Assembly (NCBI RefSeq): GCF_012932915.1
Contig: NZ_VCQU01000004.1
Coordinates: forward strand, 310,001 to 374,000
DNA length: 64,000 nucleotides
Source: Antrihabitans stalactiti
GTDB lineage: Bacteria; Actinomycetota; Actinomycetes; Mycobacteriales; Mycobacteriaceae
Direction of reading: 5' to 3'
The position numbers and the translations under genes were made by a program. Position 1 is the stretch's first letter. Every line of letters starts with the position of its first letter. This document shows, one piece after another, positions 4,728 to 20,396 of this stretch. The notes under the pieces were generated by a model. That model worked only from the letters and a program-made list of their open reading frames with translations. It was not told the origin of the DNA and made no database searches.

Positions 4728-5525
4728 GTGAACTTGGATTTGAACGGAAAACGCGCAATCGTGACCGGCGGCAGTCAAGGAATCGGTCTGGCCATCGCTC
4801 ACGGACTCGCCGCCGAAGGGGTCGACGTGGTGATCGCGGCGCGCTCGGCCGAACCACTCGAGGCTGCAGCCCGAGAAGTCGCTCAGGCATCGGGTCGGCG
4901 AGTCATCGCGGTCCCGACCGACACGGGCGACGATGACGCCGTGCAAGAGCTCGTCCGGCGCACGATTGCCGAATTTGGTGGGATCGACATCCTGGTGAAT
5001 TCCGCCGCGACGCCGTGGAGCGCAGGTGCGACCAAGGATTTGAGCGCGACCACCGACGACGTCGTTCGCCGTGAGGTCGAGATCAAGGTGCTCGGCTATC
5101 TGCGCACCGCGCGTGCAGTCGCACCACATCTCGTCGCGCAAGGCTGGGGCCGGATCATCAACATCAGCGGACTCGGTGCACGGCAAGCCAATTCGATCGC
5201 CCAGACCGTGCGCAACGTCAGTGTGTCTGCCTTGACCAAGAACTTGGCTGACGAACTCGGTCCGTATGGCGTCAACGTCACCGTCGTGCATCCGGGGTTG
5301 ACTCGCACCGAGCGCCTCACGAAGCGGCTGGCCGAGCAGTCTGCGGCGTCGGGTCGATCGGTCGCCGAGTTGGAGGCGGAGCTCGCCAAGAACTCGGTCC
5401 GTCGGGTCATCGATGCCCGCGAGGTCGCTGACGTAGTCACCTTCCTCGCATCGCCCCGCAGCATCGGTATCACCGGCGACGCCATCGCTGTTGGTGGCGG
5501 AGTCCCCGGCCCGGTGTATTACTAG
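4728..5525 (+). CDS. SDR-family oxidoreductase lacking the canonical YxxxK pair
   Basis: A 265-aa Rossmann-fold short-chain dehydrogenase/reductase. The cofactor motif TGGSQGIG is at about 14-21, NSAA at the usual NAG position, and RIINIS supplies the structural/catalytic serine region. Where the catalytic YxxxK is expected (about 13 residues after that Ser) the sequence is AQTVRNVSVSALTK, with no Tyr or Lys at the active positions, so the standard proton-relay chemistry is doubtful. The C-terminal DAIAVGGG is typical of the family. Substrate is unknown. GTG 4728 is preferred over GTG 4719 on promoter spacing. It ends convergently with the DUF222 gene (4-bp overlap). Confidence 0.85.
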   Translation: MNLDLNGKRAIVTGGSQGIGLAIAHGLAAEGVDVVIAARSAEPLEAAAREVAQASGRRVIAVPTDTGDDDAVQELVRRTIAEFGGIDILVNSAATPWSAGATKDLSATTDDVVRREVEIKVLGYLRTARAVAPHLVAQGWGRIINISGLGARQANSIAQTVRNVSVSALTKNLADELGPYGVNVTVVHPGLTRTERLTKRLAEQSAASGRSVAELEAELAKNSVRRVIDAREVADVVTFLASPRSIGITGDAIAVGGGVPGPVYY

Positions 5526-7108
5526 AACGGGCATGGTTCGTCGGGGTCGTCGGTGGTGTCGACGATCCGCGACTTAGGTTGTCGGCGTGCCGGTTTCACC
5601 CCACGCGCCTCCAGCAGGAACACCAGCTGCTGCTCGGCCTTGGACCGCCCGAACCGCAACTGCTCCAACATCGACGAACTCGAACACACAATCCCATCAC
5701 CCGGGCGCGGCACATAGACGTGCGGTGGCTGTGGTCGTGGTTTCGGTGCCACTGGGGGTGGCTGCGGCCACAGGAACTTCGCGCCCTCCGGCTCGGTGAC
5801 CACCTGTTCCCCCGTCGGCGTCGTCCACACCAACCGACCACCCCCACACTGACGCACCCGCCACCCGTTGAGCCCGTTCTCCCCCGCCGTCTTGCACCGA
5901 TGATGCCGCCGACACAACTTCGCGGCGTTCTCTTTCACGGTGCGGCCGCCTCGACGTGGATCGTCATGGTCATACCGCTCGACATGATCGGTATCCGCCT
6001 CCACCGCCGGCCGCACACACCCCGGAAACCGGCACGTCCCATCCCGCGCCCCCACCCACCCCGACACCTTCGCCGTCCACGCATACCGCAACGCCTCAGC
6101 ATCATCAGCCGGGTCATCGGCATCATCGGGATCGTCGTCGGTCACCTCGGCAACTGCCGCCGCGTCGGTTTCGGTTTCGGTGTCGGCGACCGCTTTCTCG
6201 ACCGCGGCCATGATCCACTCCCACCGACCATCCACCGCCAACGACCGAGCCAGATCCGCATCGATCGCCCCATACCCCGCCAAAAACCCGGGGTGATCAG
6301 CCAACCCGAGCAACGTCTCCGACGACACCCCGACCTGAATCAACGCCCGCCGCGCCAGGCCCGCCGTCGCGTCGGTGTTCGCGGTGCAATCGTCACGACC
6401 GCACTCACACGACAGATGCTCACTGCCGTCGGCCAACGCGACCAACCCGTCCGCCCGGCGTTGGGCGAACGTCCGCGGATCATGAGCACAGACCTGCTTC
6501 GCCAGCTCCGTCAACCGTGCCGCAAGGGCTTGCGCACCCGCGGCCGGGAGCAACCCGTCCAGGTAGCTCATCCCGTCCTGATGCCCCCGGATCCGCACAT
6601 CCCGATCCTCGGTCCGCCGCTGCCTGCGTTCCTTCTCCCCGTCCGGATCCGCCGCGGTGATCCACCGCCGACCACGTTCGCGTAGCTTCGCCGGATTGCA
6701 CGATCCCGCCACCCCGGCGAGCCGTTTCTCCAGCTCGGCGACCAACTCCGGATCGAGGTTCACCAGCAGATCGGCGATCACCTTCGCCCGCGCGAAGTCG
6801 ATATCCCCGACCGCGAACGCCGCCCGCGTGCGCGGCAACGATTCCAACGCCAACCCCAGATCGAGGCATGCATTCGCCACCGCCTCGCTCACCCGCAACG
6901 CTGCCGCCGCTTCCACCGCGGCCCACTGCCCGGCGACCGACCCGTTGAGCCCGCGTGCGGTGTCCTCATCGAACCGGCGCCGGTACAGCTCGGTCAAGGC
7001 GAACACCTCGGCGGCTTGGTCCACCGCGACCGCGCGGTGGCGCGCCCGCAGGGCCTCGACCAACCCGATCTCGGTGACGCCGACCCACTCGGCACGGTGC
7101 TCGCTCAT
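5522..7108 (-). CDS. DUF222/13E12-repeat family protein with C-terminal HNH nuclease domain
   Basis: A 528-aa protein. The helical DUF222 region spans about 1-330. The HNH motif is near 410-460: GTCRFPGCVRP, then DTDHVERYDHDD and KLCRRHHRCK, carrying the paired metal-binding and catalytic histidines. Members are abundant in mycolata, often multicopy, and several mycobacterial ones are LexA-regulated. The function is unproven, probably DNA cleavage or repair. ATG 7108 is chosen because the family begins at this MSEHRAEW-like point; an upstream in-frame ATG at 7306 would add 66 low-complexity residues. An Asp/Ala-rich linker (about 355-385) separates the domains. Confidence 0.85.
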   Translation of the reverse strand: MSEHRAEWVGVTEIGLVEALRARHRAVAVDQAAEVFALTELYRRRFDEDTARGLNGSVAGQWAAVEAAAALRVSEAVANACLDLGLALESLPRTRAAFAVGDIDFARAKVIADLLVNLDPELVAELEKRLAGVAGSCNPAKLRERGRRWITAADPDGEKERRQRRTEDRDVRIRGHQDGMSYLDGLLPAAGAQALAARLTELAKQVCAHDPRTFAQRRADGLVALADGSEHLSCECGRDDCTANTDATAGLARRALIQVGVSSETLLGLADHPGFLAGYGAIDADLARSLAVDGRWEWIMAAVEKAVADTETETDAAAVAEVTDDDPDDADDPADDAEALRYAWTAKVSGWVGARDGTCRFPGCVRPAVEADTDHVERYDHDDPRRGGRTVKENAAKLCRRHHRCKTAGENGLNGWRVRQCGGGRLVWTTPTGEQVVTEPEGAKFLWPQPPPVAPKPRPQPPHVYVPRPGDGIVCSSSSMLEQLRFGRSKAEQQLVFLLEARGVKPARRQPKSRIVDTTDDPDEPCPF

Positions 7109-7116
7109 ACGTTCTA
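7101..7116 (-). promoter_or_regulatory. SOS-box-like (LexA) site over the start of the DUF222-HNH gene
   Basis: Read on the minus strand, TAGAACGTATGAGCGA matches the mycobacterial SOS consensus TCGAAC-N4-GTTCGA at 9 of 12 positions; the left half is good and the right half weak. It overlaps the ATG at 7108. A -10-like TCTAAT sits 7 nt upstream of that ATG. Confidence 0.4.
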
Positions 7117-7413
7117 TTAGATCAGACGGGTCCGACAAGAAATGAAGCGATGAGACCCCCAACGACTGTGAGTGAATTTCACCCCTGGGCGGGTAAGACG
7201 CGCGCACGGGGCTCGATACTTCTTCAGCCACTGGCGTCCACACGGGCGGGCGTGTCGGAGCCGGTCGATTCTGAACGTATGCCGCCAGCACTTGGTTCAA
7301 CTGCATTCCCGCAGGTCACATTGCCTTCTTAAGCGCGCGATAAGAGTTGAACAAGCGGAGTCGAGCATTCTCATTTCCAACACAGCAAGTCCCACACTGC
7401 GAAGGAACTGAGA
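7117..7413. other. Intergenic region between divergent DUF222 and DUF4189 genes
   Basis: About 300 bp without a supported gene. The part near 7109-7306 is in frame with the DUF222 protein but rich in Pro, Arg and Ser and looks non-coding. The part before 7414 is locally AT-richer and should hold the DUF4189 promoter, with GAAGGAACTG as ribosome-binding site. No repeat or RNA was recognised. Confidence 0.5.
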
Positions 7414-7797
7414 ATGAACAAGATCGTCGCCCGCACCGCCGTCATCGCCGCCACCGCCGGAGCTGCAATCGCAATCGCAACCGGACCGGCCAGCGCGTCT
7501 GCCGACAACTACGGTTCGATCGCCATCTCGACCAGCACCGGCAACATCGGCTGGTCCTACGACTACGCATCTCGTGCGACTGCCGAGTCCGTCGCGCTCA
7601 GCAACTGCAACGCCTCCGATTGTTCGGCGGTGGTGTGGTTCGCGAACGGCTGCGGCGCAGTTTCCAAGGCACCCAACGGCGCTTGGGGTTGGGGCTACGC
7701 GGCCTCCCGTGAAGGCGCAGAGGCGCAGGCACTCAGCCACACCCAGGGCGCCAACGCGGAGATCGTCCGCTGGGTGTGCACCACAGGCCACCAGTAA
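7414..7797 (+). CDS. Secreted DUF4189 domain protein
   Basis: A 127-aa protein with a classical signal peptide: MNKIVARTAV, a hydrophobic Ala-rich core, and likely cleavage after GPASASA near residue 30. The mature part is a DUF4189-type module with repeated aromatic/Gly stretches (YGSIAIS, GNIGWSYDY, GAWGWGYA) and four cysteines (in LSNCNASDCS, NGCGAV and WVCTTG) likely to form two disulfides outside the cell. Function unknown. GAAGGA 6-7 nt upstream gives a strong ribosome-binding site. It is convergent with the metallopeptidase operon, separated by a shared terminator. Confidence 0.85.
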   Translation: MNKIVARTAVIAATAGAAIAIATGPASASADNYGSIAISTSTGNIGWSYDYASRATAESVALSNCNASDCSAVVWFANGCGAVSKAPNGAWGWGYAASREGAEAQALSHTQGANAEIVRWVCTTGHQ

Positions 7798-7808
7798 GAG
7801 CGAGGGGT

Positions 7809-7845
7809 GAATGCCCCCGAGTCCACTGCGGACTCGGGGGCATTC
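7809..7845. terminator. Bidirectional terminator hairpin
   Basis: A perfect 16-bp stem (7809-7824 with 7830-7845) with loop ACTGC lies in the gap between the convergent DUF4189 gene and the metallopeptidase operon. T-rich sequence follows on the plus side (TTCTTCGTTT). Confidence 0.85.
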
Positions 7846-7861
7846 TTCGTTTGCGCGGACC

Positions 7862-8875
7862 TCAGCTGATGATCGTGTGCACGAACCGCATCTTGTCCAG
7901 AACCTTCTCGGGCAGTACGAACGGGTACAAGTCGGGGTGACCCATGGACCGGTTCATCTGATTGAGCGCCCACGAGAGCGGCAGCCATTGTTCGATGATC
8001 CGATCGAATCCGGACTTGCCGAGGACCGGGTGATCCAGCCCCACCCCGGACGGCGCGAAACCGTTCGCCGCGGCCGTGTCGAGGGTGTCACGAATGTGCA
8101 GGTAATGGGCGAACGTCTCCGCCCAGTCTTCGGCCGGGTGCATGGATGCGTACGACGAGACGAAGGAACGTGCCCAACCCGCTGGCGCGCCGTTCTGGTA
8201 GTGCCTGTCGAGTGCCGCCTGATAGTCGGCATCGGGGTCGCCGAAGAATGACTCGAACTCGCTCCGTTGGTCGGGTCCGATCAGCACGCCGAAATAGTAG
8301 TGGCCGATTTCGTGCCGGAAATGGCCCAACAATGTCCGGTAGGGCTCGGCCATCTCGACGCGCAACTGTTCGCGATGAACGTCGTCGCCTTCGGCTAGAT
8401 CGAGCGTGACGACGCCCTGGAAGTGACCGGTCATCACCTGCTCCCGACCGCTAGAGAGCAGATCGAACGCCACCCCGTTCTCCGGATCGTCTTCTCGCGA
8501 CACAATCGGCAGACCGAGTTCACGCAGCTCGAAGATCAACCTGCGCTTGGCCTGTTCGGCGTCGGCGAAGGCTACGAGGGCCTCGGTGTCCCAATCGGCT
8601 GGACGTGTTCTGGTCAGACGGCAGGACAGGCACAGCCCCTCGGGGTCGTCCATCGCCACCAACCAGTTGCACCTCGCCAAATGCATGTTGTCGCACAAGC
8701 GGAAGTGCTCGCTGTCGACCACCCCGGAGGATTCCGCGTCGCTCGAGGGTGGCGTCCCGATGACGACCAGGGACCGTTGGTCCACCGAAAAACCCAGTGG
8801 GCTTCCACAACTCAGGCACAACGAGTTTTCGAAAGTGAGTTTTTGCCCGCAGTTCGGGCAGACGAAATCGCGCAT
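7862..8875 (-). CDS. Zinc-ribbon putative zinc metallopeptidase (COG4307 type)
   Basis: A 337-aa protein. A zinc ribbon (C6, C9, C20, C23) opens it, followed by further cysteines (C61, C69, C82, C85). The metallopeptidase signature HEIGH is at 188-192, with E253 (in WAETFAHY) as the probable third ligand, as in gluzincin-like enzymes. The family is COG4307; from memory M. tuberculosis Rv2568c. The ATG at 8875 overlaps the stop of the upstream transglutaminase (TGATG), so it is the last gene of the transglutaminase/ATP-grasp operon. An upstream in-frame extension to 9058 is a shadow of that gene. It may cleave or trim the product of the ligase system, which is an inference. Confidence 0.88.
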   Translation of the reverse strand: MRDFVCPNCGQKLTFENSLCLSCGSPLGFSVDQRSLVVIGTPPSSDAESSGVVDSEHFRLCDNMHLARCNWLVAMDDPEGLCLSCRLTRTRPADWDTEALVAFADAEQAKRRLIFELRELGLPIVSREDDPENGVAFDLLSSGREQVMTGHFQGVVTLDLAEGDDVHREQLRVEMAEPYRTLLGHFRHEIGHYYFGVLIGPDQRSEFESFFGDPDADYQAALDRHYQNGAPAGWARSFVSSYASMHPAEDWAETFAHYLHIRDTLDTAAANGFAPSGVGLDHPVLGKSGFDRIIEQWLPLSWALNQMNRSMGHPDLYPFVLPEKVLDKMRFVHTIIS

Positions 8876-9777
8876 CAGCCGACGCCGTCTACGCTCGCGA
8901 GCGGCGCAACGTCGACCGAGACCGCAATCGTGCTTTTTTTCGCATCCGTGTAGATGACTCCGCGCAGCGGCGGAACGTCTGCGTAATCCCGCCCCCACGC
9001 AACGACGATGTATCGCTCGTCGGCCAGCTGATCGTTGGTCGGATCGAAACCCACCCACGCATCTTCGCTGCCCGGTACCCAGACCTCGGCCCAGGCGTGC
9101 GTCGCGTCAGCCCCGATCATTCGCTCTCTGCCTGGCGGCGGGTCGGTCGCCAGGTAGCCCGACACATACCGAGCGGCCAGACCTTGACTGCGCAAGCACG
9201 CGATGGCCAGCCGGGCGAAATCCTGGCACACCCCGGACCGCTCCCTCAGGACTTCGTCGACCTGTGTCGACACCGACGTCGAGCCGGATTCGTAGGTGAA
9301 ATCGGTGTAGATCCGGTGGGTGAGGTCGATGACGACCTCGCTGAGCGGCCGTCCAGGGACGAACGTCTGCGCTGCATATTCTCTTACGGCTGGTGTGATT
9401 TCGGGCGGATTCAGGTCGAGTGCGAACTCGACTGCTCGCGCGCCCGACTCGTCGGATTCGCAATGAGTCGACGGGCGCGCACGCTCCCACGCCACATCGG
9501 CCGCAGCGGGACGGACCGGGTTGTCGACCTCGACGGACGATTCGCCGGTGACGACGAGCTGCTCGTGCGCCGTCGTCACATGAAAAAAGGTATCCGCGTT
9601 GCCATAGACGTCATGGCCGGATGCCTGATCGGCCGGCGCGGGCGCAACTGTGACGCGGTGCTCCAACAACCGCTGCCCGGGCAGTTCGCGGGGGGTGAGA
9701 AACCCACGACCGTACGACGACGACACCGAGTCGGAGTATCGATAGGTTGTGCGATGCGTGATGCGGAAGCGCCTCAT
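8875..9777 (-). CDS. Transglutaminase-like cysteine protease/transamidase domain protein
   Basis: A 300-aa protein starting MRRFRITHRTTYRY. An N-terminal beta-rich transglutaminase-associated domain (1-about 95) precedes the catalytic core with C184 (RSGVCQDFARL), H228 (DATHAWAEVW) and D245 (GFDPTND), a complete papain-like triad. There is no signal peptide, so it should act in the cytoplasm. ATG 9777 overlaps the upstream stop by ATGA; a further-upstream start at 9807 would lie inside that gene. Probably hydrolyses or transamidates a peptide made by the adjacent ATP-grasp protein. From memory the counterpart is M. tuberculosis Rv2569c. Confidence 0.9.
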   Translation of the reverse strand: MRRFRITHRTTYRYSDSVSSSYGRGFLTPRELPGQRLLEHRVTVAPAPADQASGHDVYGNADTFFHVTTAHEQLVVTGESSVEVDNPVRPAAADVAWERARPSTHCESDESGARAVEFALDLNPPEITPAVREYAAQTFVPGRPLSEVVIDLTHRIYTDFTYESGSTSVSTQVDEVLRERSGVCQDFARLAIACLRSQGLAARYVSGYLATDPPPGRERMIGADATHAWAEVWVPGSEDAWVGFDPTNDQLADERYIVVAWGRDYADVPPLRGVIYTDAKKSTIAVSVDVAPLASVDGVG

Positions 9778-12362
9778 GGAACGTACCGCCCTGTCGTCGT
9801 ACCCCACAGCGGCTGCATAGCTGTCGGCACGGCCAGCTTGTCGGTCAAGACGTCGGACAGCTCACGCAGCGACTCATGAATTCCGTCCATGAGTTTACCT
9901 AGGTCCGCGCGGCGACCGTCGGCGTCGACCGCCTCGAGGTCGACGGGATCGGCTCGGCGAAGTCGTGCGCTGATCTCCTCGACGAGACGCTCAGCCCGGC
10001 TCGAGCCAGACGCGTCGGGCAGCGCCCTTAGGTTGCTGCGCAACTTGTCCAACTGGAAGATCAGCGAACGCGGGTTGCCCTCGTCGAACAGCAGCAGCAG
10101 CGCGACTGCGGCAATGCGGACCTGGCCCCGATTTCGCCGCCGATAGGTGACCGACGATTCCGTTGTGGCGAGGACCGATTCCACAACTGCCCGTTCACAA
10201 CTCGGACCATGCTGCGCGGTCAAGGTGTTCGACAGCAACTTCGTCAACGCCAGCGCCCGCTCGACGCGCTTGCCGATATCGGTGTGGTACCAGCCGGCGT
10301 CGTGCACCATCGACTCCGCCGATAGTCCTGACAGCGCCAACATTCCGCCCAGAACAGCCGTTTGTGCGGTGGCGGCGAGCACCGGATCGTCGGTGTCGTC
10401 ATATTGCGCTGCAGCAATCGCCCGGTCGACGCCGCTGAACACCGACCACGTGTCGTTGGACAGCTGATCACGGACCGATCGGCACGCCTGCTGCAGTCGC
10501 TCGACCGAATCGGCAAGTGCGCCTGCGCGATCCGCAGTAACTGTCAACTTGCGGACAGCAGCGTCGGCCTCGTCGGCTCCGAATTCCGCCTCGCTCCAGC
10601 CCGCGTACGCCATGACTGCACTGAACAGCACTGGCAGACAATCACTTCCAGGCAGCCATGGCCTGTGCCGGTAGTCGGCGATCTTGTCCCGCATCGCGAT
10701 CAGTAGCCGGGCCGTGTGCTCGGACCGCTCAGCGTAACGACCGATCCAGAACATGTCGTCGAGAACGCGCGGCGACGAAACCGGTTCTGCCGCAGCGCCT
10801 GCCAACAGCGGAAGCGCCTCCGGCAAGGTCAAAGCGCTCGGCGAGCCCGCCTCCGACGGCTTGACTCGCTCGGCGGCCCGGATCCACACGTCTTTCGCGG
10901 CGGACGACACGACGTTTCCGTCCGGTCCGAGGTGCGAGACGACTGCCCCCAGTCCCCCGTTGAGTGCCGCGTAGCCGCCGCGCTGACTGACCGAGAACAT
11001 CCGAAACTGCACCGGTGCGCTGGCGACACCGTGCAACGATTCGATTGGTGCACTGGAGTATTCGGGTGATTCGGTACCCACCCAGCTACACGGCTCTGCC
11101 TCGATGCGAGCACGCAACGCCTCTCGTTCCTGCTGCGTCAACGATGCTCCGAGGACGGCCGGTTCGCCGGTCGTCCGCTCCAGCACCAACGTGTCCAGAT
11201 GTGCGAGAACGTAGGACCGCTCGGCGGCATCGCCGGCCCAGTACCGCTGGACCGAAGGTAGAGCAAGGTCCTCGTCGAGCAACTCCCGGCACAGGCGTGG
11301 GAGCAGCCGTGGCAGAGCAGGGTTCTCCAACACACCGCTGCCCAAGGTATTGACGACGGTGACTTTGCCCCTGCGCATCACCTCGACCAAGCCCACGACA
11401 CCGAGACGGGAGTCCGGCCGCAGGTCGAGCGGATCGGAGAACAATGCGTCGACGCGCCGCAGCACCACGTCGACCCGCTTGAGCGTGCCCAGCGAACGCA
11501 TCCACAGATGTCCGTCTCGCACGACGAGGTCCGCGCTTTCGACGAGCGGAAAACCCAGCACGGTCGCGAGATGCGCTTGGTCGAAGGAGGTTTCGGAATG
11601 GGCGCCGGGGCTGAGCACGACGACGACAGGGTCTTCGGCTCCTTCCGGGGCCGCATCGATCAGTGCCAGGCGCATCGCTTGCGTGAAGCCGGACAGCGGT
11701 CGTGGCCGGACGTCACCGAACACGGTCGGCAAGGCCCGCGAGATGACGCGGCGGTCGGCGAGGGCATAACCGACGCCCGAAGGCGCCTGGGTGCGATCGG
11801 CGATCACTCTGAATTCGCCGTCACTACTCCGTGAGATGTCGGCGCCGTGCAGGAAAAGCTGATGCCTGCCGGGAATCGAGATCCCGTGTGCCGCTCGCAC
11901 GTAACCTGGGTCAGCGAAGACCAACTCGGGTGGGATCAGCCCGCGCCGGACCGTCTGCATCGGACCGTACAGATCGGCGAGCACCGCATCGAGCACACGA
12001 GTGCGTTGCAAGAGACCCGCCTCCAGCGGATCCCAATCGGGTGCTGCCAGTACCAGCGGCAACCCGTCGAGCAACCACGGACTCGGCGCCGAGACCGGCG
12101 CGCCGTCCTTCGTGTCGGTGATCTCGTTGTAGGTGATGCCGTCGTTCTCGACGAGGTGGGCGACCCGGTCACGCAACGGCTCCCGGCCATGCGCATCGTT
12201 GACGGCGACACCGTCGGCGACCTCACGCCAATGACCACGAATGCTGCCCTCGGCGTCGATTAGCTCGTCGTATGCGGACGGCCTCCCACCAACTCTGTAC
12301 GCGCTGATGACATCGTCGAGGACGCTTTCCACAACTGATTTCGACACCCTGTGGGCCGTCAT
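9774..12362 (-). CDS. Circularly permuted ATP-grasp ligase fused to alpha-E domain
   Basis: An 862-aa fusion. Residues about 30-480 are the circularly permuted ATP-grasp type (formerly DUF404/407), seen in QRTRVLDAVLADLYGP, FADPGYVRAAHG, VVNTLGSGVLENPAL and VWIRAAERV. Residues about 530-855 are the all-helical alpha-E domain (formerly DUF403), opened by MFWIGRYAERSEHTARLL. In many bacteria these are separate neighbouring genes; the fusion fixes their stoichiometry. ATP-grasp enzymes make acyl-phosphate intermediates for C-N ligation, so a peptide or amide ligase is expected, but substrate and product are unknown. From memory it matches M. tuberculosis Rv2567. It starts 7 bp after the DUF2126 gene. 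Confidence 0.92.
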   Translation of the reverse strand: MTAHRVSKSVVESVLDDVISAYRVGGRPSAYDELIDAEGSIRGHWREVADGVAVNDAHGREPLRDRVAHLVENDGITYNEITDTKDGAPVSAPSPWLLDGLPLVLAAPDWDPLEAGLLQRTRVLDAVLADLYGPMQTVRRGLIPPELVFADPGYVRAAHGISIPGRHQLFLHGADISRSSDGEFRVIADRTQAPSGVGYALADRRVISRALPTVFGDVRPRPLSGFTQAMRLALIDAAPEGAEDPVVVVLSPGAHSETSFDQAHLATVLGFPLVESADLVVRDGHLWMRSLGTLKRVDVVLRRVDALFSDPLDLRPDSRLGVVGLVEVMRRGKVTVVNTLGSGVLENPALPRLLPRLCRELLDEDLALPSVQRYWAGDAAERSYVLAHLDTLVLERTTGEPAVLGASLTQQEREALRARIEAEPCSWVGTESPEYSSAPIESLHGVASAPVQFRMFSVSQRGGYAALNGGLGAVVSHLGPDGNVVSSAAKDVWIRAAERVKPSEAGSPSALTLPEALPLLAGAAAEPVSSPRVLDDMFWIGRYAERSEHTARLLIAMRDKIADYRHRPWLPGSDCLPVLFSAVMAYAGWSEAEFGADEADAAVRKLTVTADRAGALADSVERLQQACRSVRDQLSNDTWSVFSGVDRAIAAAQYDDTDDPVLAATAQTAVLGGMLALSGLSAESMVHDAGWYHTDIGKRVERALALTKLLSNTLTAQHGPSCERAVVESVLATTESSVTYRRRNRGQVRIAAVALLLLFDEGNPRSLIFQLDKLRSNLRALPDASGSSRAERLVEEISARLRRADPVDLEAVDADGRRADLGKLMDGIHESLRELSDVLTDKLAVPTAMQPLWGTTTGRYVP

Positions 12363-12369
12363 CCTCCCG

Positions 12370-15300
12370 TCACCGCAGTACCGAACTCACCCGTCGAAGG
12401 TCAAGGATGCCAGGCGCTCCGACGTCTGTGGCGATACGGGCTCGAATTTCCCGCAACACAGCAGTGTCCATGACGCCCGACGAGTACCCGATCTCCTCGA
12501 AACGCCTGTTCCGGCGGCTTTCGGCGGCAACGGCGTTGACCGGCGCATCGTCGTACGAGCGACCGCCCGGATGAACGACGTGATAGGTGCAGCCCCCACG
12601 CGATTGGCCCGCGGCCACGTCGACGAGATCGAACACCAACGGGCTGTGCACCTCGATCGTCGGGTGCAGTGCGCTCGGCGGTTGCCAGGCCCGGTAGCGA
12701 ATCCCTGCGACTTGCACGTCGGCGATGTCGGTTCGCTGCAGCGGCACCGGAATGCCGTTGACCGTGAGCATGTGCCGTTCCCGGTCGGCACCGACCACCC
12801 GAACCTGCAGCCGCTCTACGGACGAGTCCACATACCTCGCGGTTCCGGTGGCCGTCGACTCTTCGCCGAGCACGTTCCACGGCTCGATCGCGCCGCGAAG
12901 CTCGATCTCGACTCCGCTGTGTACGACCGTGCCGATCCGCGGGAACCTGAACTCGGTGAACGGTTCCAGCCAGCTCGTGTCGAAATCGATTCCGTTCCTG
13001 CGTAAGTCCGCAGCGACCTCGGCGATGTCGTTGATCACGTAGTGCGGCAACAGGTACCGGCCATGCAAGTTCTCACCGTGCCGAATCAATGGTGCCTGCA
13101 ACGGCTTGTCCCAGAAGCGAGCCACCAGGGACCGCACCAGTAGCGATTGCACCATGGCCATCTGGTGATGCGGCGGCATTTCGAACCCACGCAACTCCAG
13201 CAGACCGAGCCTGCCCCGAGCCGAGTCCGGACTGTAGAGCTTGTCGATGCAGAACTCCGCGCGATGGGTATTGCCGGTCAGATCGGTAAGCAGGTGCCGC
13301 AGCGCGCGGTCGACGAGCCACGGCTTCGACGTCTCGGCGCCGATGTCGTCACCCACCATTTCACCGACCCGTGCGATCTCGGCGAACGCGATCTCGAGCT
13401 CGTAGAGCGACTCGATCCGCCCCTCGTCGACGCGCGGTGCCTGCGACGTCGGACCGATGAATCGGCCCGAGAAGAGGTAGGACAGAGAGGGGTGGCGCTG
13501 CCAGTACGTCAGCAGTGAGACGAGCAGGTCAGGGCGTCGCAGCAGCGGCGAATCCTGAGGTGTGACACCGCCGAGCGTGATGTGGTTCCCACCTCCCGTG
13601 CCGCCGTGGGTGCCGTCGTTGTCGAACGATTCGGTGCTCAACCGTGCCAGTCGCGCCTGCTCGTAGAGCGTGTCCAGCAGCGCGGACTGTTCGGCAAACG
13701 ACGCGGTGGGCTGCACATTCACCTCGATCACGCCAGGGTCGGGAGTGACCGAAAGCGATTGCAGCCGTGGGTCGATGGGCGGTCCGTAGCCCTCGATGAC
13801 CACCGGAGTGCCACCATCGGATGCCGCGACTTCGATCTGGCCCAGCAACTCGGCGAAACTGTCGAGGTCTGGCAGCGGCGGCATGAAGACATACAGCACA
13901 CCGTCGCGGACCTCGGCGACGAGAGCCGTGGTCGGAACGAAATCCTCCGGCGCCGTCACGAACGCAGGCGATCCGGCAGGCACCGCCTTCGAGGCCAGCG
14001 GCAGCGGACCTTTGTCTTCGGTCGGGTCCGATTCCGGATCAGGCTCGGGCGGACGCCACGAGATCGAATCCAGCGGCAGGCGCAAGCCTGCTGGAGAGTC
14101 TCCCTCCAACAACACGATTCGTCCGCGCCGCAATCGCCAGTCGGCGCTCTCCCACGCTGTGCCGTCTTCGCTCCGATTGAGCGGAAGGACGAAAGCCGTT
14201 GGTTCGGCGGTCGGGTCGTCGAGTCGCGCGAGCAGGTCGGCGCGCGCCGCTGCGGAATCCTCCTCCGGTTCGATGTCCGGCGTCGAGGTCGGATCGATCG
14301 GCGTCCCTGCGGGCATCCGGACCTTGGTGTGGAGTCGTCCCAACGCGTCTTCGTAAGCCGGACGGACCTGACTCAACGGCAAACCGAACTGTGCCGCAAC
14401 GGATTCGACGAGCTCCTGCGCGTAATGCGGCTTGGCAGGTGCCTTGCGGCCGGGGGCCCAGGGATCCGCCAAGAGCTTCGGGTCGGTCCACAGTGCCTCG
14501 CCGTCGGTGCGCCAATACAGGCCGATCTGCCACCTCGGCAGCGGTTCACCCGGGTACCACTTGCCCTGACTGCGCTGCACGAAACCCGTTGGGGCGTAGA
14601 TCCTTCGCAATCGCTCCGCGAGGTCGCTCGCCCGCTCGCGCTTGTGCGGTCCGTCGGCGTCGGTGGTCCATTCGGGCGACTCCTGATCGTCCACGGAGAC
14701 GAAGGTTGGTTCGCCGCCCATCGTCAGCCGAACGTCGGCGTCCGCGCAGCGCTTGTCGACCTCCGCGCCGAGTGCTGTGATCGCTTGCCACTGGGTTTCC
14801 GTGTACGGCAGCGTCACCCGCGGATCTTCGTGGATCCGCCGGACCGTGTTCGAGAAGTCCAGCGTGGCTTTGCACTTGCCGGTGGCACCGGTGATCGGCG
14901 CCGCCGAGGCCGGGTGCGGGGTCGCCGAAAGCGGAATATGGCCCTCACCGGCGAACAGCCCCGAGGTGGGGTCGAGACCGATCCAACCCGCGCCAGGCAA
15001 GTACACCTCTGCCCAGGCATGTAGATCGGTGAAGTCCGCAGTCGGACCCGAGGGACCGTCCAAAGCAGGAACATCCGACGTCAGCTGAATCAAATAGCCC
15101 GACACGAACCGCGCGGCCAAACCGAGCTGCCGCAGGATGGACACGAGCAGCCAGGCGGAATCACGGCACGAACCAATCCCGGTCGTGAGGGTGTGGTCCG
15201 GCGTCTGCACACCTGCCTCGAGCCGGACGGTGTACGAAACGTCTCGCAGCACGGCGTAATTGAGCGCGACGAGCAAGTCGATGGTCCGAATCTTGTCCGG

Positions 15301-15729
15301 AATCTCGAACTTGCTCACCCAATTGGTGACCTCCTCACCCGGTCCACTGCCTTCGCCTGCTTCGTCGACAGGGCGCAGGTACGGGTCCAGGTCCAGCGCG
15401 AGGTCCTTGGGGTAGGCGAACCCGAAGTATTCGGCAAAGTCCTCGATGAAGAAGTCGAGCGGGTTGACAGCCTCCATGTCGGCGATCAGTCCGACCGTGA
15501 TCGACAACGATGTTGTGCGTTCCGGAAAGACGAGGCGCGCCATGAAATTTCCGAACGCGTCCTGCTGCCAGTTGAGGAAATGGTCCGCTGGTTCGACTTT
15601 CAGCGAGAACGCCTCGATCGGCGTTCGCGAATGCGGCGCGGGCCGCAATCTGACGACGTGTGGATATATTTCGACCAACCGGTCGAACTCGTAGCTGGTT
15701 CGATGTTCCAGCGCGACCTTGATGCCCAT
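12370..15729 (-). CDS. DUF2126 protein with N-terminal transglutaminase domain
   Basis: A very large 1119-aa protein. Residues 1-about 290 form a transglutaminase module with C188 (GSCRDSAWLL), H237 (DLHAWAEVYLPG) and D253 (GLDPTSG). The rest is DUF2126: an LTMGGEPTFV segment near 340, and further C-terminal a Gly-rich GGTGGGNHITLGG that resembles the ATP/glutamate loop of glutamine-synthetase-fold ligases, which is my own observation from the motif. GGAAGG 7 nt upstream supports ATG 15729. It heads the four-gene operon. From memory Rv2566 is the M. tuberculosis counterpart. Function has not been established; no signal peptide is visible. Confidence 0.92.
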   Translation of the reverse strand: MGIKVALEHRTSYEFDRLVEIYPHVVRLRPAPHSRTPIEAFSLKVEPADHFLNWQQDAFGNFMARLVFPERTTSLSITVGLIADMEAVNPLDFFIEDFAEYFGFAYPKDLALDLDPYLRPVDEAGEGSGPGEEVTNWVSKFEIPDKIRTIDLLVALNYAVLRDVSYTVRLEAGVQTPDHTLTTGIGSCRDSAWLLVSILRQLGLAARFVSGYLIQLTSDVPALDGPSGPTADFTDLHAWAEVYLPGAGWIGLDPTSGLFAGEGHIPLSATPHPASAAPITGATGKCKATLDFSNTVRRIHEDPRVTLPYTETQWQAITALGAEVDKRCADADVRLTMGGEPTFVSVDDQESPEWTTDADGPHKRERASDLAERLRRIYAPTGFVQRSQGKWYPGEPLPRWQIGLYWRTDGEALWTDPKLLADPWAPGRKAPAKPHYAQELVESVAAQFGLPLSQVRPAYEDALGRLHTKVRMPAGTPIDPTSTPDIEPEEDSAAARADLLARLDDPTAEPTAFVLPLNRSEDGTAWESADWRLRRGRIVLLEGDSPAGLRLPLDSISWRPPEPDPESDPTEDKGPLPLASKAVPAGSPAFVTAPEDFVPTTALVAEVRDGVLYVFMPPLPDLDSFAELLGQIEVAASDGGTPVVIEGYGPPIDPRLQSLSVTPDPGVIEVNVQPTASFAEQSALLDTLYEQARLARLSTESFDNDGTHGGTGGGNHITLGGVTPQDSPLLRRPDLLVSLLTYWQRHPSLSYLFSGRFIGPTSQAPRVDEGRIESLYELEIAFAEIARVGEMVGDDIGAETSKPWLVDRALRHLLTDLTGNTHRAEFCIDKLYSPDSARGRLGLLELRGFEMPPHHQMAMVQSLLVRSLVARFWDKPLQAPLIRHGENLHGRYLLPHYVINDIAEVAADLRRNGIDFDTSWLEPFTEFRFPRIGTVVHSGVEIELRGAIEPWNVLGEESTATGTARYVDSSVERLQVRVVGADRERHMLTVNGIPVPLQRTDIADVQVAGIRYRAWQPPSALHPTIEVHSPLVFDLVDVAAGQSRGGCTYHVVHPGGRSYDDAPVNAVAAESRRNRRFEEIGYSSGVMDTAVLREIRARIATDVGAPGILDLRRVSSVLR

Positions 15730-15802
15730 GTACCGACCTTCCGCGCGGTGATGAGCAAACGTTACCGGCGATGGTCCAGGTCAGCAGCGCGGGCGGATGC
15801 GC

Positions 15803-17134
15803 CTATCGTGCGGTCAGCACTCGATCGAGCGCATTGACAGCCTGATCGAGTTCCGATCGCACCACGGTCAGCGAGGGGCGGAACCGAATTCCCCGCTCAC
15901 CGGTGCCAAGGATCAAGACGCGCTCGTCGTCGCGCATACCTGCGACGACGCTGTCGCGTAGTTCGGGAGTTGCCAGCGTGATCGCGCACATCAGCCCGCG
16001 CCCGCGCGCATCGGAAACGGCCTCGTGCCTGTCTTCCAGCCACCGCAGTCGCGCGAGTAGATGGTCGCCCAACTCGCGTGCCCGCTCGATCAGTCCGTCT
16101 CGCTCGATCACTTCGAGAATTCGCCGGGAGCGCACCATGTCGGTGAGATTGCCGCCCCAGGTCGAGTTCAGACGCGATGCCACGTGGAAGACATTGTCGG
16201 CGACCTCGTCGACGCGACCGCCCGCCATGATGCCGCACACCTGAGTCTTCTTGCCGAATGCGACGACGTCGGGCGTCACGCCCAATTGCTGGTAGGCCCA
16301 TGCGGTCCCGGTCAGACCACACCCGGTCTGCACCTCGTCCAAGACGAACAGCGCGTCGTTCGCATGGCACAACGCCTGCATAGCCTGCAGGAATTGGGGG
16401 CGAAGGTGGCGGTCGCCGCCTTCACCCTGGATGGGCTCGGCTATGAAGCAGGCGATGTCGTGTGGATGTGCGGTGAACATCGCGCGTGCCTGGGCCAGGG
16501 CATGCTCTTCATCCGCCACCACGTCACGCCCGTGCGTCAGATAGGGCGAATCGATTCGCGGCCAGTCGAACTTCGGGAACCGGGCAACTTTGTTCGGATC
16601 GGTGTTCGTCAATGACATCGTGTAACCCGTCCGGCCGTGGAACGCACCGGTCAGATGCAGAACTTTCGTTCCCAGTGCCGGATCGACGCCGATCGACTCG
16701 TTATGCCTGCTCTTCCAGTCGAACGCGACTTTCAGCGCGTTCTCGACAGCAAGTGCACCGCCGTCGACGAAGAACAGATGGGGCAGGTCGGGGTCACCGA
16801 GCACTCGCGCGAAGGTATCGACGAACCGCGCCATCGGCACCGTATAGATGTCGGAATTACTCGGCTTGTTCACCGCCACCGTCGCGAGTTCGTGCAGGAA
16901 ATCTGGGTCGTCGGTCAGCGAGACATGATTCATCCCCAGCGCAGACGACGCGAAGAACCCGAACATGTCGAGGTAGGTCGTCCCGTTGCGTTGATCGACG
17001 AGGTGTGCTCCGATCGAGCGCTCGAGGTCGAGGACCAGGTCGAACCCGTCGACGAGGATGTTCGCGGCGAGTACCTGATGAACCTGGGCAGCAGTGATCT
17101 CCTGCGGGGCGGGGTACAACGGTTCTGCGGTCAT
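15803..17134 (-). CDS. lat: L-lysine 6-aminotransferase
   Basis: A 443-aa class-III PLP aminotransferase that transfers the epsilon-amino group of lysine to 2-oxoglutarate, giving allysine/piperideine-6-carboxylate. Visible signatures: FFVDGGALAVENALKVAF (PLP phosphate and lysine recognition), AEPIQGEGG, DEVQTG (D266 holds the PLP ring) and FGKKTQVCG with the Schiff-base lysine at 295 or 296. It lies downstream of the Lrp regulator and near the ALDH that oxidises its product, the same set as M. tuberculosis Rv3290c-Rv3291c-Rv3293 (from memory). A leaderless promoter and a perfect inverted repeat sit immediately upstream. In M. tuberculosis lat is strongly starvation-induced. Confidence 0.95.
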   Translation of the reverse strand: MTAEPLYPAPQEITAAQVHQVLAANILVDGFDLVLDLERSIGAHLVDQRNGTTYLDMFGFFASSALGMNHVSLTDDPDFLHELATVAVNKPSNSDIYTVPMARFVDTFARVLGDPDLPHLFFVDGGALAVENALKVAFDWKSRHNESIGVDPALGTKVLHLTGAFHGRTGYTMSLTNTDPNKVARFPKFDWPRIDSPYLTHGRDVVADEEHALAQARAMFTAHPHDIACFIAEPIQGEGGDRHLRPQFLQAMQALCHANDALFVLDEVQTGCGLTGTAWAYQQLGVTPDVVAFGKKTQVCGIMAGGRVDEVADNVFHVASRLNSTWGGNLTDMVRSRRILEVIERDGLIERARELGDHLLARLRWLEDRHEAVSDARGRGLMCAITLATPELRDSVVAGMRDDERVLILGTGERGIRFRPSLTVVRSELDQAVNALDRVLTAR

Positions 17135-17141
17135 GAGACCG

Positions 17142-17147
17142 AGGATA
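17142..17147 (-). promoter_or_regulatory. Candidate -10 (TATCCT) of lat
   Basis: On the minus strand TATCCT is followed by 7 nt and then the lat ATG at 17134, the spacing of a leaderless transcript. No Shine-Dalgarno is visible. Confidence 0.45.
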
Positions 17148-17168
17148 CGACAATTATTAACGGAAATT

Positions 17169-17185
17169 TTCCTGTCTTACAGGAA
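17169..17185. promoter_or_regulatory. Perfect inverted repeat, probable Lrp-type operator of lat
   Basis: TTCCTGT-CTT-ACAGGAA (7-bp arms, 3-nt spacer) is centred about 43 bp before the lat start, in an AT-rich patch between lrp and lat. Position and symmetry suit an Lrp/AsnC operator overlapping the -35 zone. Confidence 0.5.
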
Positions 17186-17202
17186 CAATTCCGCCCTGGA
17201 AG

Positions 17203-17712
17203 TCACTTATCGTAAAATGTCTGCAGGATGATCGTGCTCCGCGTGTTCACATTCGCCGTCTGCCGGATTTCGTGCAGCAACTGCTCGAGATGGCGGGGCG
17301 ATCCGACTCGCACCATCAGGACGTAGCTGTCGTCGCCCGCAACGGAGTGACACGACTCGATCGCGGAGATGTGCTGCAGTCGGCTCGGGGCGTCGTCGGG
17401 AGCAGACGGATCGAGAGGAGTGATGGCTACGAATGCCGAAAGCATCTGGCCGAGCGCTTCCGGGTCCACGTTCGCGGTATATCCCCGAATCACGCCTCGC
17501 GACTCGAGCCGGCGGACCCGCGACTGCACTGCCGATACAGAAAGACTTGCCTTCTCAGCCAAAGTCGACAAAGTTGCTCGCCCGTCCGCGACCAATTCGC
17601 GGATCAGCAATCGATCGATATCGTCGATTGCGAGCTTTGCCGGCTCCGTTCGGGTTGCTTGCCCTCGCGGCGCCAGTGCGCCCGCCAACGCGGGCCTGGG
17701 TGTTTGCGCCAT
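17203..17712 (-). CDS. lrpA: Lrp/AsnC-family regulator
   Basis: A 169-aa feast/famine regulator. The HTH is at about 35-80 (LAEKASLSVSAVQSRVRRLESRGVI is the recognition unit, shown in part), followed by an AsnC ligand-sensing (RAM) domain with HSVAGDDSYVLMVRV and a C-terminal STIILQTFYDK. It lies directly upstream of lat on the same strand and divergent from the aldehyde dehydrogenase, so it probably controls both in response to an amino acid such as lysine. ATG 17712 is preferred over the TTG at 17718 because TAGCCT ends 6 nt before it. From memory it corresponds to M. tuberculosis LrpA (Rv3291c), with a somewhat longer N-terminus. Confidence 0.92.
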   Translation of the reverse strand: MAQTPRPALAGALAPRGQATRTEPAKLAIDDIDRLLIRELVADGRATLSTLAEKASLSVSAVQSRVRRLESRGVIRGYTANVDPEALGQMLSAFVAITPLDPSAPDDAPSRLQHISAIESCHSVAGDDSYVLMVRVGSPRHLEQLLHEIRQTANVNTRSTIILQTFYDK

Positions 17713-17718
17713 CGGCAA

Positions 17719-17724
17719 AGGCTA
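17719..17724 (-). promoter_or_regulatory. Candidate -10 (TAGCCT) for leaderless lrp mRNA
   Basis: Minus-strand TAGCCT is 6 nt from ATG 17712 and contains the TTG alternative's upstream edge, so it argues for the ATG. Confidence 0.45.
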
Positions 17725-17901
17725 CTGTAGAAGGGCTGATTCTTGGCTGAAACTCGAGACCTCTGGGTGTGTTTTACCAGGCCGCTCATACGGGTGTTCA
17801 TCCCTTGTCCAAGCCCCCGCGTTGGTCCGCCGTCGCCAACCCCGCTACTAGCCAGCGATCCAACTTGCAGCCCCCAGGTTGGTTTATGAAGGGAAAAGCC
17901 G

Positions 17902-19404
17902 ATGTCAGCGCTTGAAACGAGAGCACGCCAGGCACTTGCCAGATTGGGTGCATCCACCCCCGACGACGGCGATTTGGCCGCGCGAACGCCGATCACCGGC
18001 GAAGTTTTGGGGCGTGTGAAAACGAGCACTCCGGACGACGTCGACGCGGCAATTTCTCGTGCACATGCTTCGTTTCGGGCGTGGCGATCGGTCCCTGCGC
18101 CGGTCCGCGCGGCGGTGGTGCGCCGGCTCGGCCAGTTGTTGACTGAACACAAGTCCGACCTCGCTGACCTCGTCACGCTCGAGGCAGGAAAAATTTCGTC
18201 GGAAGCCCTGGGCGAGGTCCAGGAGATGATCGACATCTGTGAGTTCGCCGTCGGAATCTCCCGCCAGCTGTACGGGAAGACGATGGCCTCCGAGCGGCCA
18301 GGCCACCGTTTGTCGGAGACGTGGCACCCGTTGGGCGTCGTCGGAGTGATCTCGGCTTTCAACTTCCCCGTCGCTGTGTGGTCGTGGAATACGGCCCTCG
18401 CGTTGGTGTGCGGTGACACCGTCGTCTGGAAGCCCTCGGAAGCGACTCCCCTCACCGCGGTCGCGTGTGACGCGCTGTTGCGCCGCGCCTGTGTCGACGT
18501 CGGCGCAGATCCAGCTGTGCACCAGCTCGTCCAAGGGTCCGCAGCCGTTGGCGAGCAACTCGTCGACGACGCGAGGGTCGCTCTGCTCAGCGCGACCGGT
18601 TCGGTCCGGATGGGTCGCGCCGTCGCCCCGCGGGTTGCTGCGCGGTTCGGCAAGGCGCTGCTCGAGCTCGGCGGCAACAACGGCGCCATCGTGACGCCGT
18701 CGGCCGACCTGGACCTCGCGGTCCGCGGGATCGTGTTCGCCGCCGCGGGAACGGCGGGCCAGCGGTGCACTTCATTGCGCCGCGTGATCGTTCACGCCTC
18801 CATCGCCGACGATCTCGTCGGCCGCATTGCCGACGCCTACCGCCAACTGCCGATTGGCGATCCGTTCGACGACTCGACACTCGTAGGTCCGCTGATCAAC
18901 CGCGCGGCCTTCGAGGCCATGCAGACCAGTTTGCAGCAGGCCCGGGCCGACGGCGCGACCGTGGTGCTCGGCGGCGACCGCGTCGACGTGGCCGGTCCCG
19001 ATTCGTACTACGTCTCCCCCGCGATCGTCCGGATGGCGAGTCAGACGTCGGTTGTGCGCGAAGAAACCTTCGCGCCGATCCTCTACGTGTTGACCTACAC
19101 CACGCTCGACGAAGCGATCGAGTTGCACAACGCTGTGCCGCAAGGGCTCTCATCGTCGATCTTCACCACCGATCAACGCGAAGCCGAGCGATTCCTCGCC
19201 GCCGACGGCTCCGACTGCGGCATTGCCAATGTCAATATCGGGACATCGGGCGCCGAGATCGGCGGTGCATTCGGCGGTGAGAAGGAGACCGGCGGTGGCC
19301 GTGAATCCGGCTCCGACTCCTGGCAGGCCTACATGCGACGAGCAACGAACACGATCAACTACTCCGACCAGCTACCGCTGGCTCAAGGCGTCAACTTCGG
19401 ATAG
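17902..19404 (+). CDS. pcd: Aldehyde dehydrogenase, ALDH7/piperideine-6-carboxylate dehydrogenase type
   Basis: A 500-aa NAD(P)-dependent dehydrogenase expected to oxidise alpha-aminoadipate semialdehyde/piperideine-6-carboxylate, the Lat product, to alpha-aminoadipate. Catalytic residues: N154 (SAFNFPVAVW), general base E255 (LELGGNN) and nucleophile C289 (GQRCTSLRR). The FNFPVAVW phrase and ELGGNN are typical of the ALDH7 (antiquitin) branch. GAAGGG about 8 nt upstream supports ATG 17902. The 189-bp divergent gap to lrp should carry its promoter. Its 3' end overlaps the convergent phosphatase gene by 22 bp. Confidence 0.9.
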   Translation: MSALETRARQALARLGASTPDDGDLAARTPITGEVLGRVKTSTPDDVDAAISRAHASFRAWRSVPAPVRAAVVRRLGQLLTEHKSDLADLVTLEAGKISSEALGEVQEMIDICEFAVGISRQLYGKTMASERPGHRLSETWHPLGVVGVISAFNFPVAVWSWNTALALVCGDTVVWKPSEATPLTAVACDALLRRACVDVGADPAVHQLVQGSAAVGEQLVDDARVALLSATGSVRMGRAVAPRVAARFGKALLELGGNNGAIVTPSADLDLAVRGIVFAAAGTAGQRCTSLRRVIVHASIADDLVGRIADAYRQLPIGDPFDDSTLVGPLINRAAFEAMQTSLQQARADGATVVLGGDRVDVAGPDSYYVSPAIVRMASQTSVVREETFAPILYVLTYTTLDEAIELHNAVPQGLSSSIFTTDQREAERFLAADGSDCGIANVNIGTSGAEIGGAFGGEKETGGGRESGSDSWQAYMRRATNTINYSDQLPLAQGVNFG

Positions 19405-19946
19405 TCGTATCCCGTCGACCGCAGGGTCCAGACCCCTCGGTAGTGGAAGCGGGTCACGCTCAGCGGCGGAATGTCTATGCGCCAGAACGCCGTCGCCGGG
19501 GCATCGAGGGCGGTGACGATCGCCGCTCTGATCACCGCTGGATGGGTGACGGCGATCGTGTGCTGCTTTGCCGCTGCTGTTGTGAAGAGCCAGGCCGAAA
19601 CTCGTTGGATCAGTTCGACGATCGATTCGACCCCTTCGGTTTTGAACTCCGGATCGGTCAACCACGCCATGAAGTCGTCCGGCGGCAACTGGTCCGTCTC
19701 GAGGCCACGCCACGGTCCGTAGTCGATTTCGCTCAGTCCGGCGTCGGTCTCGCCGACAAGGCCGAGAGCCTGCGCCGTCTCTATTGCCCGGAGTTCCGGA
19801 GCAATTCGCACTCGCTCTGCCGACATCTGCTCGCGGCGGCCACATTCGCGCCGCCCGACCTCGTTCAGTGGCTCATCGGCCGGAATTCGGGCCAGCCGAA
19901 GGGCATCGGTGCTGGCATGGCTGACGAACGCGACTCGCAAACTCAC
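19383..19946 (-). CDS. Histidine phosphatase superfamily protein, non-canonical RHG
   Basis: A 187-aa protein of the phosphoglycerate-mutase-like/histidine phosphatase fold: VSHAST at the N-terminus replaces the usual RHGE/T, with the His kept but the preceding Arg changed to Ser. DEPLNEVGRRE, an IAPELRAIETAQAL signature, EIDYGPWRGLE, and the second catalytic His in AVTHPAVIRA follow. Substrate is unknown. The missing Arg may alter phosphate binding. GTG start; no Shine-Dalgarno, but a TAGCTT hexamer lies 6 nt upstream. It diverges from the HD-domain gene across only 24 bp. Confidence 0.8.
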   Translation of the reverse strand: MSLRVAFVSHASTDALRLARIPADEPLNEVGRRECGRREQMSAERVRIAPELRAIETAQALGLVGETDAGLSEIDYGPWRGLETDQLPPDDFMAWLTDPEFKTEGVESIVELIQRVSAWLFTTAAAKQHTIAVTHPAVIRAAIVTALDAPATAFWRIDIPPLSVTRFHYRGVWTLRSTGYDYPKLTP

Positions 19947-19952
19947 TCAGCC

Positions 19953-19962
19953 AAGCTACAGT
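19953..19962. promoter_or_regulatory. Two overlapping divergent -10 hexamers
   Basis: TAGCTT on the minus strand (19958-19953, 6 nt from GTG 19946) and TACAGT on the plus strand (19957-19962, 8 nt from ATG 19971) share two bases. Both fit leaderless promoters, so polymerase could not occupy both at once. Confidence 0.4.
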
Positions 19963-19970
19963 CTGCGAAC

Positions 19971-20396
19971 ATGAGCTCAGAAGTCATTGCCGCTGCGCGC
20001 GCGATCGCGTCGATCGCCCATCGCGGTCAGACCGACAAGTCCGGCGAGCCATACATCGACCACCCTCGGCGGATCGCCGAGCGACTGAACGACCCGTCAC
20101 AGGTCGCCGCAGCCTGGCTGCACGACGTCATCGAGGACTGCGGCATTTCCGCCCAAGACCTTGCCGCCGCAGGCATTCCGGGCGACGTGATCGATGCCGT
20201 CGTGCTGCTGACGCGCTCGGACGAGTACACCAGCGACCACTATTACGCCTCGATTCGCGAGAACCCCATCGCACTTGCCGTGAAGCTGGCCGACATCGAC
20301 GACAACACCGACGAAGAACGTCTCGCCAAGCTCGACACCGAAACCCAGGAACGGCTTCGAGAGAAGTACCGCGCCGCGATTCGTGCCCTGACCTAG
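19971..20396 (+). CDS. Small HD-domain hydrolase related to RelA/SpoT hydrolase (MESH1/SAH-like)
   Basis: A 141-aa stand-alone HD protein. It follows the ppGpp-hydrolase core of SpoT/MESH1: AHRGQTDKSGEPYIDHPRR, WLHDVIEDC (the HD metal pair plus ED) and AVKLADIDDNTD where SpoT has KLADRLHNMR. There is no synthetase or regulatory domain. It may hydrolyse an alarmone or other pyrophosphorylated nucleotide, but the altered RLHN segment makes the substrate uncertain. Its stop overlaps the convergent VOC gene by 4 bp. Confidence 0.8.
   Translation: MSSEVIAAARAIASIAHRGQTDKSGEPYIDHPRRIAERLNDPSQVAAAWLHDVIEDCGISAQDLAAAGIPGDVIDAVVLLTRSDEYTSDHYYASIRENPIALAVKLADIDDNTDEERLAKLDTETQERLREKYRAAIRALT

Follow-up and report, generated by a model that had tools for sequence, protein, structure and literature searches.

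A group of four genes on the minus strand (7862..15729) of a 64,000-nucleotide stretch of the Antrihabitans stalactiti genome (6.76 Mb; contig NZ_VCQU01000004.1, positions 310,001 to 374,000; hereafter the window, whose numbering is used throughout) encodes a set of probable amide-bond enzymes whose product has been in question since 2008-2009. In transcriptional order, these are a DUF2126 protein (12370..15729; 1119 amino acids), consisting of Bact_transglu_N and Transglut_core domains and a putative amidoligase region (residues 285-1112); a fusion of CP-ATP-grasp (residues 102-474) and alpha-E (residues 531-841) domains (9774..12362; 862 amino acids) with the ER motif FWIGRYAERSE; a second transglutaminase (TG)-fold protein (8875..9777; 300 amino acids); and a protein called Mx here (7862..8875; 337 amino acids), in which a zinc-ribbon region (PF10005) is combined with a HEIGH zinc peptidase (PF15887). 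All four open reading frames (ORFs) are intact, each with an ATG start and one terminal stop. DUF2126 and the fusion gene are separated by 7 bp, the fusion and TG genes overlap by ATGA at 9774-9777, and TG and Mx overlap by TGATG at 8875. ORFs, junctions and domains were recomputed and agree with the original prediction of a co-directional four-gene set with overlaps or gaps of at most 7 bp. Pfam scores are well over their cut-offs (PF09899, 1165 bits against 27; CP_ATPgrasp_2, 422; Alpha-E, 210; Transglut_core, 64.5 and 72.9; Peptidase_Mx, 339), and the structure 3n6x is a solved relative of the ATP-grasp part (E 4.8e-63). A membrane-like 19-residue stretch is absent from all four proteins (top Kyte-Doolittle mean 1.45). 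Read from their arrangement, the four genes are a single predicted operon of a known and widespread bacterial enzyme set.

Two complete TG triads had been proposed for this operon, and both Cys-His-Asp sets are present. In the DUF2126 protein, C188/H237/D253 is invariant in 53/53 aligned sequences, and in the second TG, C184/H227/D245 is conserved in all 70 aligned TG sequences; the histidine of the latter had been given as H228, a position occupied by alanine, and is H227. The HEIGH motif of Mx lies at residues 188-192, and eight cysteines are conserved in 24/24 aligned sequences. The TG and Mx alignments drew on ORFs of 231-429 amino acids only. Over the 53 sequences, which come from several phyla, DUF2126 has a mean column identity of 56%, and a GxExxFxxxD motif appears by eye to be common to DUF2126 and GCS2 proteins. 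When the C-terminus of DUF2126 was compared with profiles of GCS2, PafA and GS, none matched, nor did the related families used as positive controls match one another. The question of its family is answered by Iyer et al. 2008 (PMC2588565), who assigned the Rv2566-type fusion to the superfamily of carboxylate-amine ligases. The Rv2566-type protein has the same fusion of TG and carboxylate-amine ligase as the window's DUF2126 protein, and the absence of a Pup-like small ORF near it was noted there, as is also the case here; a zinc peptidase, sigma-54 and nitrogen are not mentioned in the passages concerned. Similarly, the operon of the proteasome relative Anbu (ATP-grasp, alpha-E, TG and Anbu; PMC6376114, PMC5666114) shares three of its four components, and the same operon logic, with the window, which differs in having Mx for Anbu, ATP-grasp and alpha-E fused, and DUF2126 added. 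The family set was thus already known from comparative genomics, as the original prediction had held, and the operon is a member of a system of a kind already described.

Conservation of the set was examined across bacteria in loci and genomes that carry our own numbers (L and G). A DUF2126-alignment scan of genome contigs gave 80 named loci, which are the best 80 of 591 and lean to close relatives; 95 labelled loci were counted, L127 being excluded as it has no labelled ORF. They span Actinomycetota, Pseudomonadota, Bacteroidota, Nitrospirota and others. In 60 of the 95, the core gene that follows DUF2126 on the same strand is the fused ATP-grasp/alpha-E gene, at a distance of at most 300 bp in 57. 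Apart from Anbu, no recurrent neighbour across phyla was recognised among at most 40 families, each in at least 5 loci and mostly unannotated. An actinobacterial sample of 296 genomes was also counted, with DUF2126, Mx and alpha-E taken over cut-off and Anbu at E 0.001; matches below cut-off were dropped for Peptidase_Mx (G003, G133, G168, G188) and alpha-E (G279). Alpha-E was found in 61 genomes, and all those with DUF2126 (16/16), Mx (23/23) or Anbu (5/5) fall among them; the co-occurrence of Mx and alpha-E has a p value of 3e-18, inflated by shared ancestry. In the 15 other DUF2126-positive actinobacterial genomes, CP-ATP-grasp, alpha-E and TG always lie within the same 19.9 kb, clustering as in the known peptide-modification system, and six of these stretches carry two ATP-grasp and two alpha-E copies. 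Of the 16 DUF2126 genomes, 15 also carry Mx, which in 10 of them lies no more than 7 kb from DUF2126; eight other genomes have Mx and lack DUF2126. In two Actinobacteria (G214, G270), Mx is near alpha-E and there is no DUF2126 match, so that Mx tracks alpha-E rather than DUF2126. The suggestion that the four genes act as one machine is supported by this conservation of gene order across phyla.

The peptidase position is the variable one. Among the 95 loci, 26 have Mx only, 17 have Anbu only and 51 have neither, the last count being inflated by many short contigs; both occur together in one (L084) of 44 peptidase-bearing loci, a weak Anbu-like fragment of L118 being left uncounted. The two peptidases occupy the same places, either after separate ATP-grasp and alpha-E genes or after the ATP-grasp/alpha-E fusion and TG, and Mx therefore sits in operon slots filled elsewhere by Anbu. 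The exclusion is weaker genome-wide, as Mx is present in two of the five actinobacterial genomes with Anbu. The Anbu genes are securely identified: their profiles match solved Anbu structures with E values of 8.7e-87 or better, and the published Thr1, Asp17 and Lys32 (PMC6376114) are invariant here (T2, D18 and K33 when the first Met is counted). Anbu has no match in the A. stalactiti genome and is found, unlinked, in 1 of the 16 DUF2126 actinobacterial genomes. Two Anbu copies per locus were seen in L122, L126 and L085. An exchange of Mx and Anbu as such is not claimed as unpublished; what is added here is the shared slot, together with a cross-genus sigma-54-type signal.

That signal was sought following a report that BCAM1233-1236 of Burkholderia cenocepacia (DUF404/407, DUF403, TG and a 'large' TG protein) is expressed at 6.0 to 9.4-fold lower levels in an ntrC mutant (PMC5491218). 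From order and description, BCAM1236 would be the DUF2126 gene. The locus of another B. cenocepacia strain (L194) starts with ATP-grasp and alpha-E, followed by a 50-residue TG match and then DUF2126, the order of BCAM1233-1236, with a sigma-54-type site of score 10 located 75 bp before the ATP-grasp match start and three further sites of score 9 elsewhere in its 17.4 kb. The scan covered L069-L130, with sites scored out of 11; upstream regions shorter than 150 bases were excluded from the comparison with shuffles, and those shorter than 300 bases from the core/non-core and GlnR counts. Sites scoring at least 9 are present in 33 of 93 core-operon upstream regions, compared with 4.3 expected from shuffles, and sites scoring at least 10 in 17, compared with 0.6. 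Within the same loci, 35/91 core but 15/270 non-core upstream regions have such sites (p 4e-13), and an actinobacterial control gave 1/42 against 1.5 expected. The scanned set includes one actinobacterium (L070) placed in the non-actinobacterial set and two pairs of near-duplicates (L074/L075 and L100/L116); without L070, L075 and L116, the counts are 30/87, with 15 at a score of at least 10. Under nitrogen limitation, Pseudomonas putida raises PP_2686-2688 (PMC7801951), PP_2685-2687 (PMC3325844) or PP_2685 and PP_2688 (PMC8050072), and an RpoN site has been predicted for a CP-ATP-grasp gene of Bradyrhizobium (PMC13207237). Altogether, it is most likely that the module is switched on outside Actinobacteria by nitrogen limitation via NtrC. 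By analogy, nitrogen control may also apply to A. stalactiti.

As a tentative account, which we hold at somewhat less than an even chance, the four gene products work as a single soluble module for amide bonds that is active when nitrogen is short, is switched by NtrC outside Actinobacteria and works on an acceptor encoded elsewhere. In this scheme, of which we infer the acceptor and every chemical step, two ATP-dependent ligases (CP-ATP-grasp/alpha-E and a putative GS-type domain in DUF2126) would activate carboxylates, and amino acids or amines would thereby be attached to an acceptor encoded outside the operon. The two papain-like TG domains may transfer or cleave amides through a cysteine acyl-enzyme, and the peptidase, Mx here and Anbu in many other bacteria, would release or degrade the product. 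In starving cells, the module would probably serve the turnover of peptides or proteins, or hold a reserve of nitrogen-rich amide. Ligating, transferring and trimming, as put forward in the original prediction, may be what these enzymes do; the only activity reported towards amide formation is phosphate release from ATP by the Yersinia ATP-grasp protein (PMC6376114). A bolder version is doubtful as a whole, namely that Mx is a non-homologous replacement of Anbu and that DUF2126, ATP-grasp, alpha-E and TG with either peptidase make up a tagless conjugate-and-degrade arm of the nitrogen-starvation response in several phyla, Mycobacteriaceae included.

Several observations weigh against the nitrogen-linked module. 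The amidoligase fold of DUF2126 is putative. GlnR control was tested and is unsupported: GlnR boxes (scored out of 9) are not enriched at a score of at least 8 in actinobacterial loci, with 5/40 core against 11/129 other upstream regions, the only full-score site there being in L043, and no site above 7 lies upstream of DUF2126, lat or lrp in the window. Without enrichment of the box, nitrogen control of the window operon is argued by analogy only. The presumed counterpart of the second TG in M. tuberculosis, going by how the genes are arranged in loci such as L056, is Rv2569c. This protein has been reported to be a serine protease associated with the cell wall, inhibited by AEBSF and PMSF but insensitive to E-64 and N-ethylmaleimide (PMC11081392), a report that fits neither the Cys-His-Asp triad conserved in 70/70 relatives nor a cytosolic module. 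Purified Anbu from Yersinia, Hyphomicrobium and Pseudomonas had no peptidase activity in the published assays, and neither a complex nor a specific pull-down was detected with the operon proteins of Yersinia (PMC6376114). Anbu-operon expression is described as unchanged under various conditions, except in nitrogen-limited P. putida (PMC5666114). In P. putida itself, PP_2686-2688 rose 14.2, 16.0 and 19.6-fold in an rpoN mutant compared with 12.6, 11.0 and 14.7-fold in the wild type, and PP_2685, the Anbu gene, barely changed in either strain (1.1 and 1.5; PMC7801951 Table 2). As printed, these values contradict sigma-54 dependence in this species, and they make the module and the Mx replacement slightly less likely. 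The urt genes, which are NtrC-controlled according to the same paper, show the same pattern in the rpoN mutant, so the discrepancy may lie in the strain or the condition.

This account has two narrower versions, in one of which the acceptor would be a protein and in the other a small molecule; they are rated equal, and each by itself is possible at best and rather unlikely. It could be that proteins are tagged in a Pup-like manner without Pup, the ligases adding an amino acid or short peptide, the TGs removing it, and Mx or Anbu degrading or trimming the product. In favour are the clustering of two amide ligases with papain-like enzymes and with either a proteasome relative or a metallopeptidase, and the tag already hypothesized for the Anbu operon (PMC6376114). 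The pupylation ligase PafA belongs to the same ligase superfamily (Iyer et al. 2008). However, the window operon is without a small protein tag, and its genes overlap or abut, leaving no room inside it for a tag or substrate gene, although a tag could be encoded elsewhere. An unfoldase is no recurrent neighbour among the 40 families, one ClpB-like ORF being seen by eye in L046, and the genome of the window has two Pup-ligase-family genes elsewhere.

Alternatively, a free nitrogen-rich peptide or polyamine-like amide might be made, stored and re-mobilised, with no protein modified. The nitrogen links (NtrC dependence, sigma-54 sites and P. putida induction) would suit such a small-molecule pathway, and 3n6x, the solved structure closest to the ATP-grasp part, is named putative glutathionylspermidine synthase. 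These domains have also been found to correlate with urea-metabolism domains in marine metagenomes (PMC3597751). Against it, no transporter or metabolic neighbour was recognised across phyla in the same 40 families, and a link to polyamine transport was tried and rejected: an ABC ATPase family is present in 14 loci, appears generic by eye in the nine inspected, and is accompanied by a Pot-like set only in L067. The original prediction's statement that the product of the family set is not established stands, none having been found for the DUF2126 protein either, despite its strong conservation across phyla. The peptidase slot and the link to nitrogen limitation indicate in which condition and which hosts to look, and make the question of the product testable.

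Upstream of DUF2126 lies lat, encoding L-lysine 6-transaminase (15803..17134, minus strand), and upstream of lat an Lrp/AsnC-type regulator gene, lrp (17203..17718, minus strand). The gap between lat and DUF2126 (15730..15802) is 73 bp, and the terminator scan found no minus-strand site in it; lat is possibly co-transcribed with the DUF2126 operon. Divergent from lrp-lat, positions 17902-19404 encode an L-piperidine-6-carboxylate dehydrogenase, which with lat makes a lysine-to-aminoadipate pair. The operon might accordingly be imagined as an add-on to lysine catabolism or starvation, acting on lysine-derived compounds, as the arrangement lrp-lat-DUF2126-ATP-grasp/alpha-E-TG-Mx with the divergent aldehyde dehydrogenase is found in three of four species of the genus. 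This is improbable: lat has no match in the 15 other actinobacterial stretches (19.9 kb each), class-III aminotransferase and lrp labels occur among the labelled loci, the window aside, only in L095 and L067, respectively, and a weak terminator-like site (17169-17185) separates lrp and lat. We consider lat to be no part of the conserved module. The view that these are separate enzymes merely under a common promoter, with which the lack of specific pull-down in Yersinia would agree (PMC6376114), is about as improbable, given that order and co-occurrence are maintained across phyla and that a five-gene set is found on an Enterobacter plasmid.

That plasmid locus (L195:9603-18794; NZ_CP116251.1), on an IncFII plasmid of Enterobacter roggenkampii, has in order ATP-grasp, alpha-E, DUF2126, the ATP-grasp/alpha-E fusion and TG; insertion sequences flank it on either side, and arsC is close by; its location indicates that the gene set can travel on a mobile replicon. 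The order DUF2126, ATP-grasp/alpha-E, TG, Mx is found in 14/95 loci, including Nocardioides, Propionibacteriales and Acidimicrobiaceae, and in two further actinobacteria (L044, L045) the genes are co-directional but differently ordered. Mycobacterial copies, e.g. that of M. szulgai (L056), have all four genes together, as in the window, with TG and Mx inverted; this inversion is seen in 6/95 loci, four from named Mycobacterium and two from the same family. In a DUF2126 tree of 24 chosen loci, the six form a single clade that lies nested within the co-directional loci (support 100/100). The window retains the ancestral, co-directional order, and the mycobacterial split is derived. The co-directional placement next to lat had been read as a rearrangement; for the co-directional order itself this is not supported, and only the adjacency of lat is specific to the lineage.

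The same genome has further copies of parts of the set. A classic three-gene copy (L011) has CP-ATP-grasp, alpha-E and TG adjacent, like the window; in contrast to it, the genes are unfused, their products are 31%, 25% and 35% identical to those of the window, and no DUF2126 ligase part or Mx is found in the 19 kb stretch. It lies between genes that are holA- and lepA-like by eye. The third CP-ATP-grasp of the genome (L012:4607-12117) is fused to a GCS2-type ligase and adjoins genes that look by eye like those for an asparagine synthetase and an M20 hydrolase. A lone second Mx (L013:8098-9093), 64% identical to that of the window, stands beside an ORF that is ECF-sigma-like by eye.

Downstream of the operon, a 16-bp hairpin on the minus strand (7809..7845; energy z -5.5) starts 16 bp past the Mx stop and is a candidate terminator; it is the plus strand, however, that has the T-rich tail needed by the scan, the minus-strand tail not being T-rich. 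The terminator scan gave no excess (4 found, 6.4 expected), the promoter scan found no sigma-70-type promoter, and no RNA element reached Rfam gathering scores in positions 5000-20000. In 6/96 loci there is an unannotated protein, encoded directly upstream of DUF2126 in L077 (8463-9788; 441 amino acids) and L090 (8767-9999; 410 amino acids), which has no Pfam match and resembles by eye a VOC/HPPD-type dioxygenase. Beyond the hairpin, positions 5522-7306 of the window encode a DUF222 protein whose C-terminus is HNH-like by eye.

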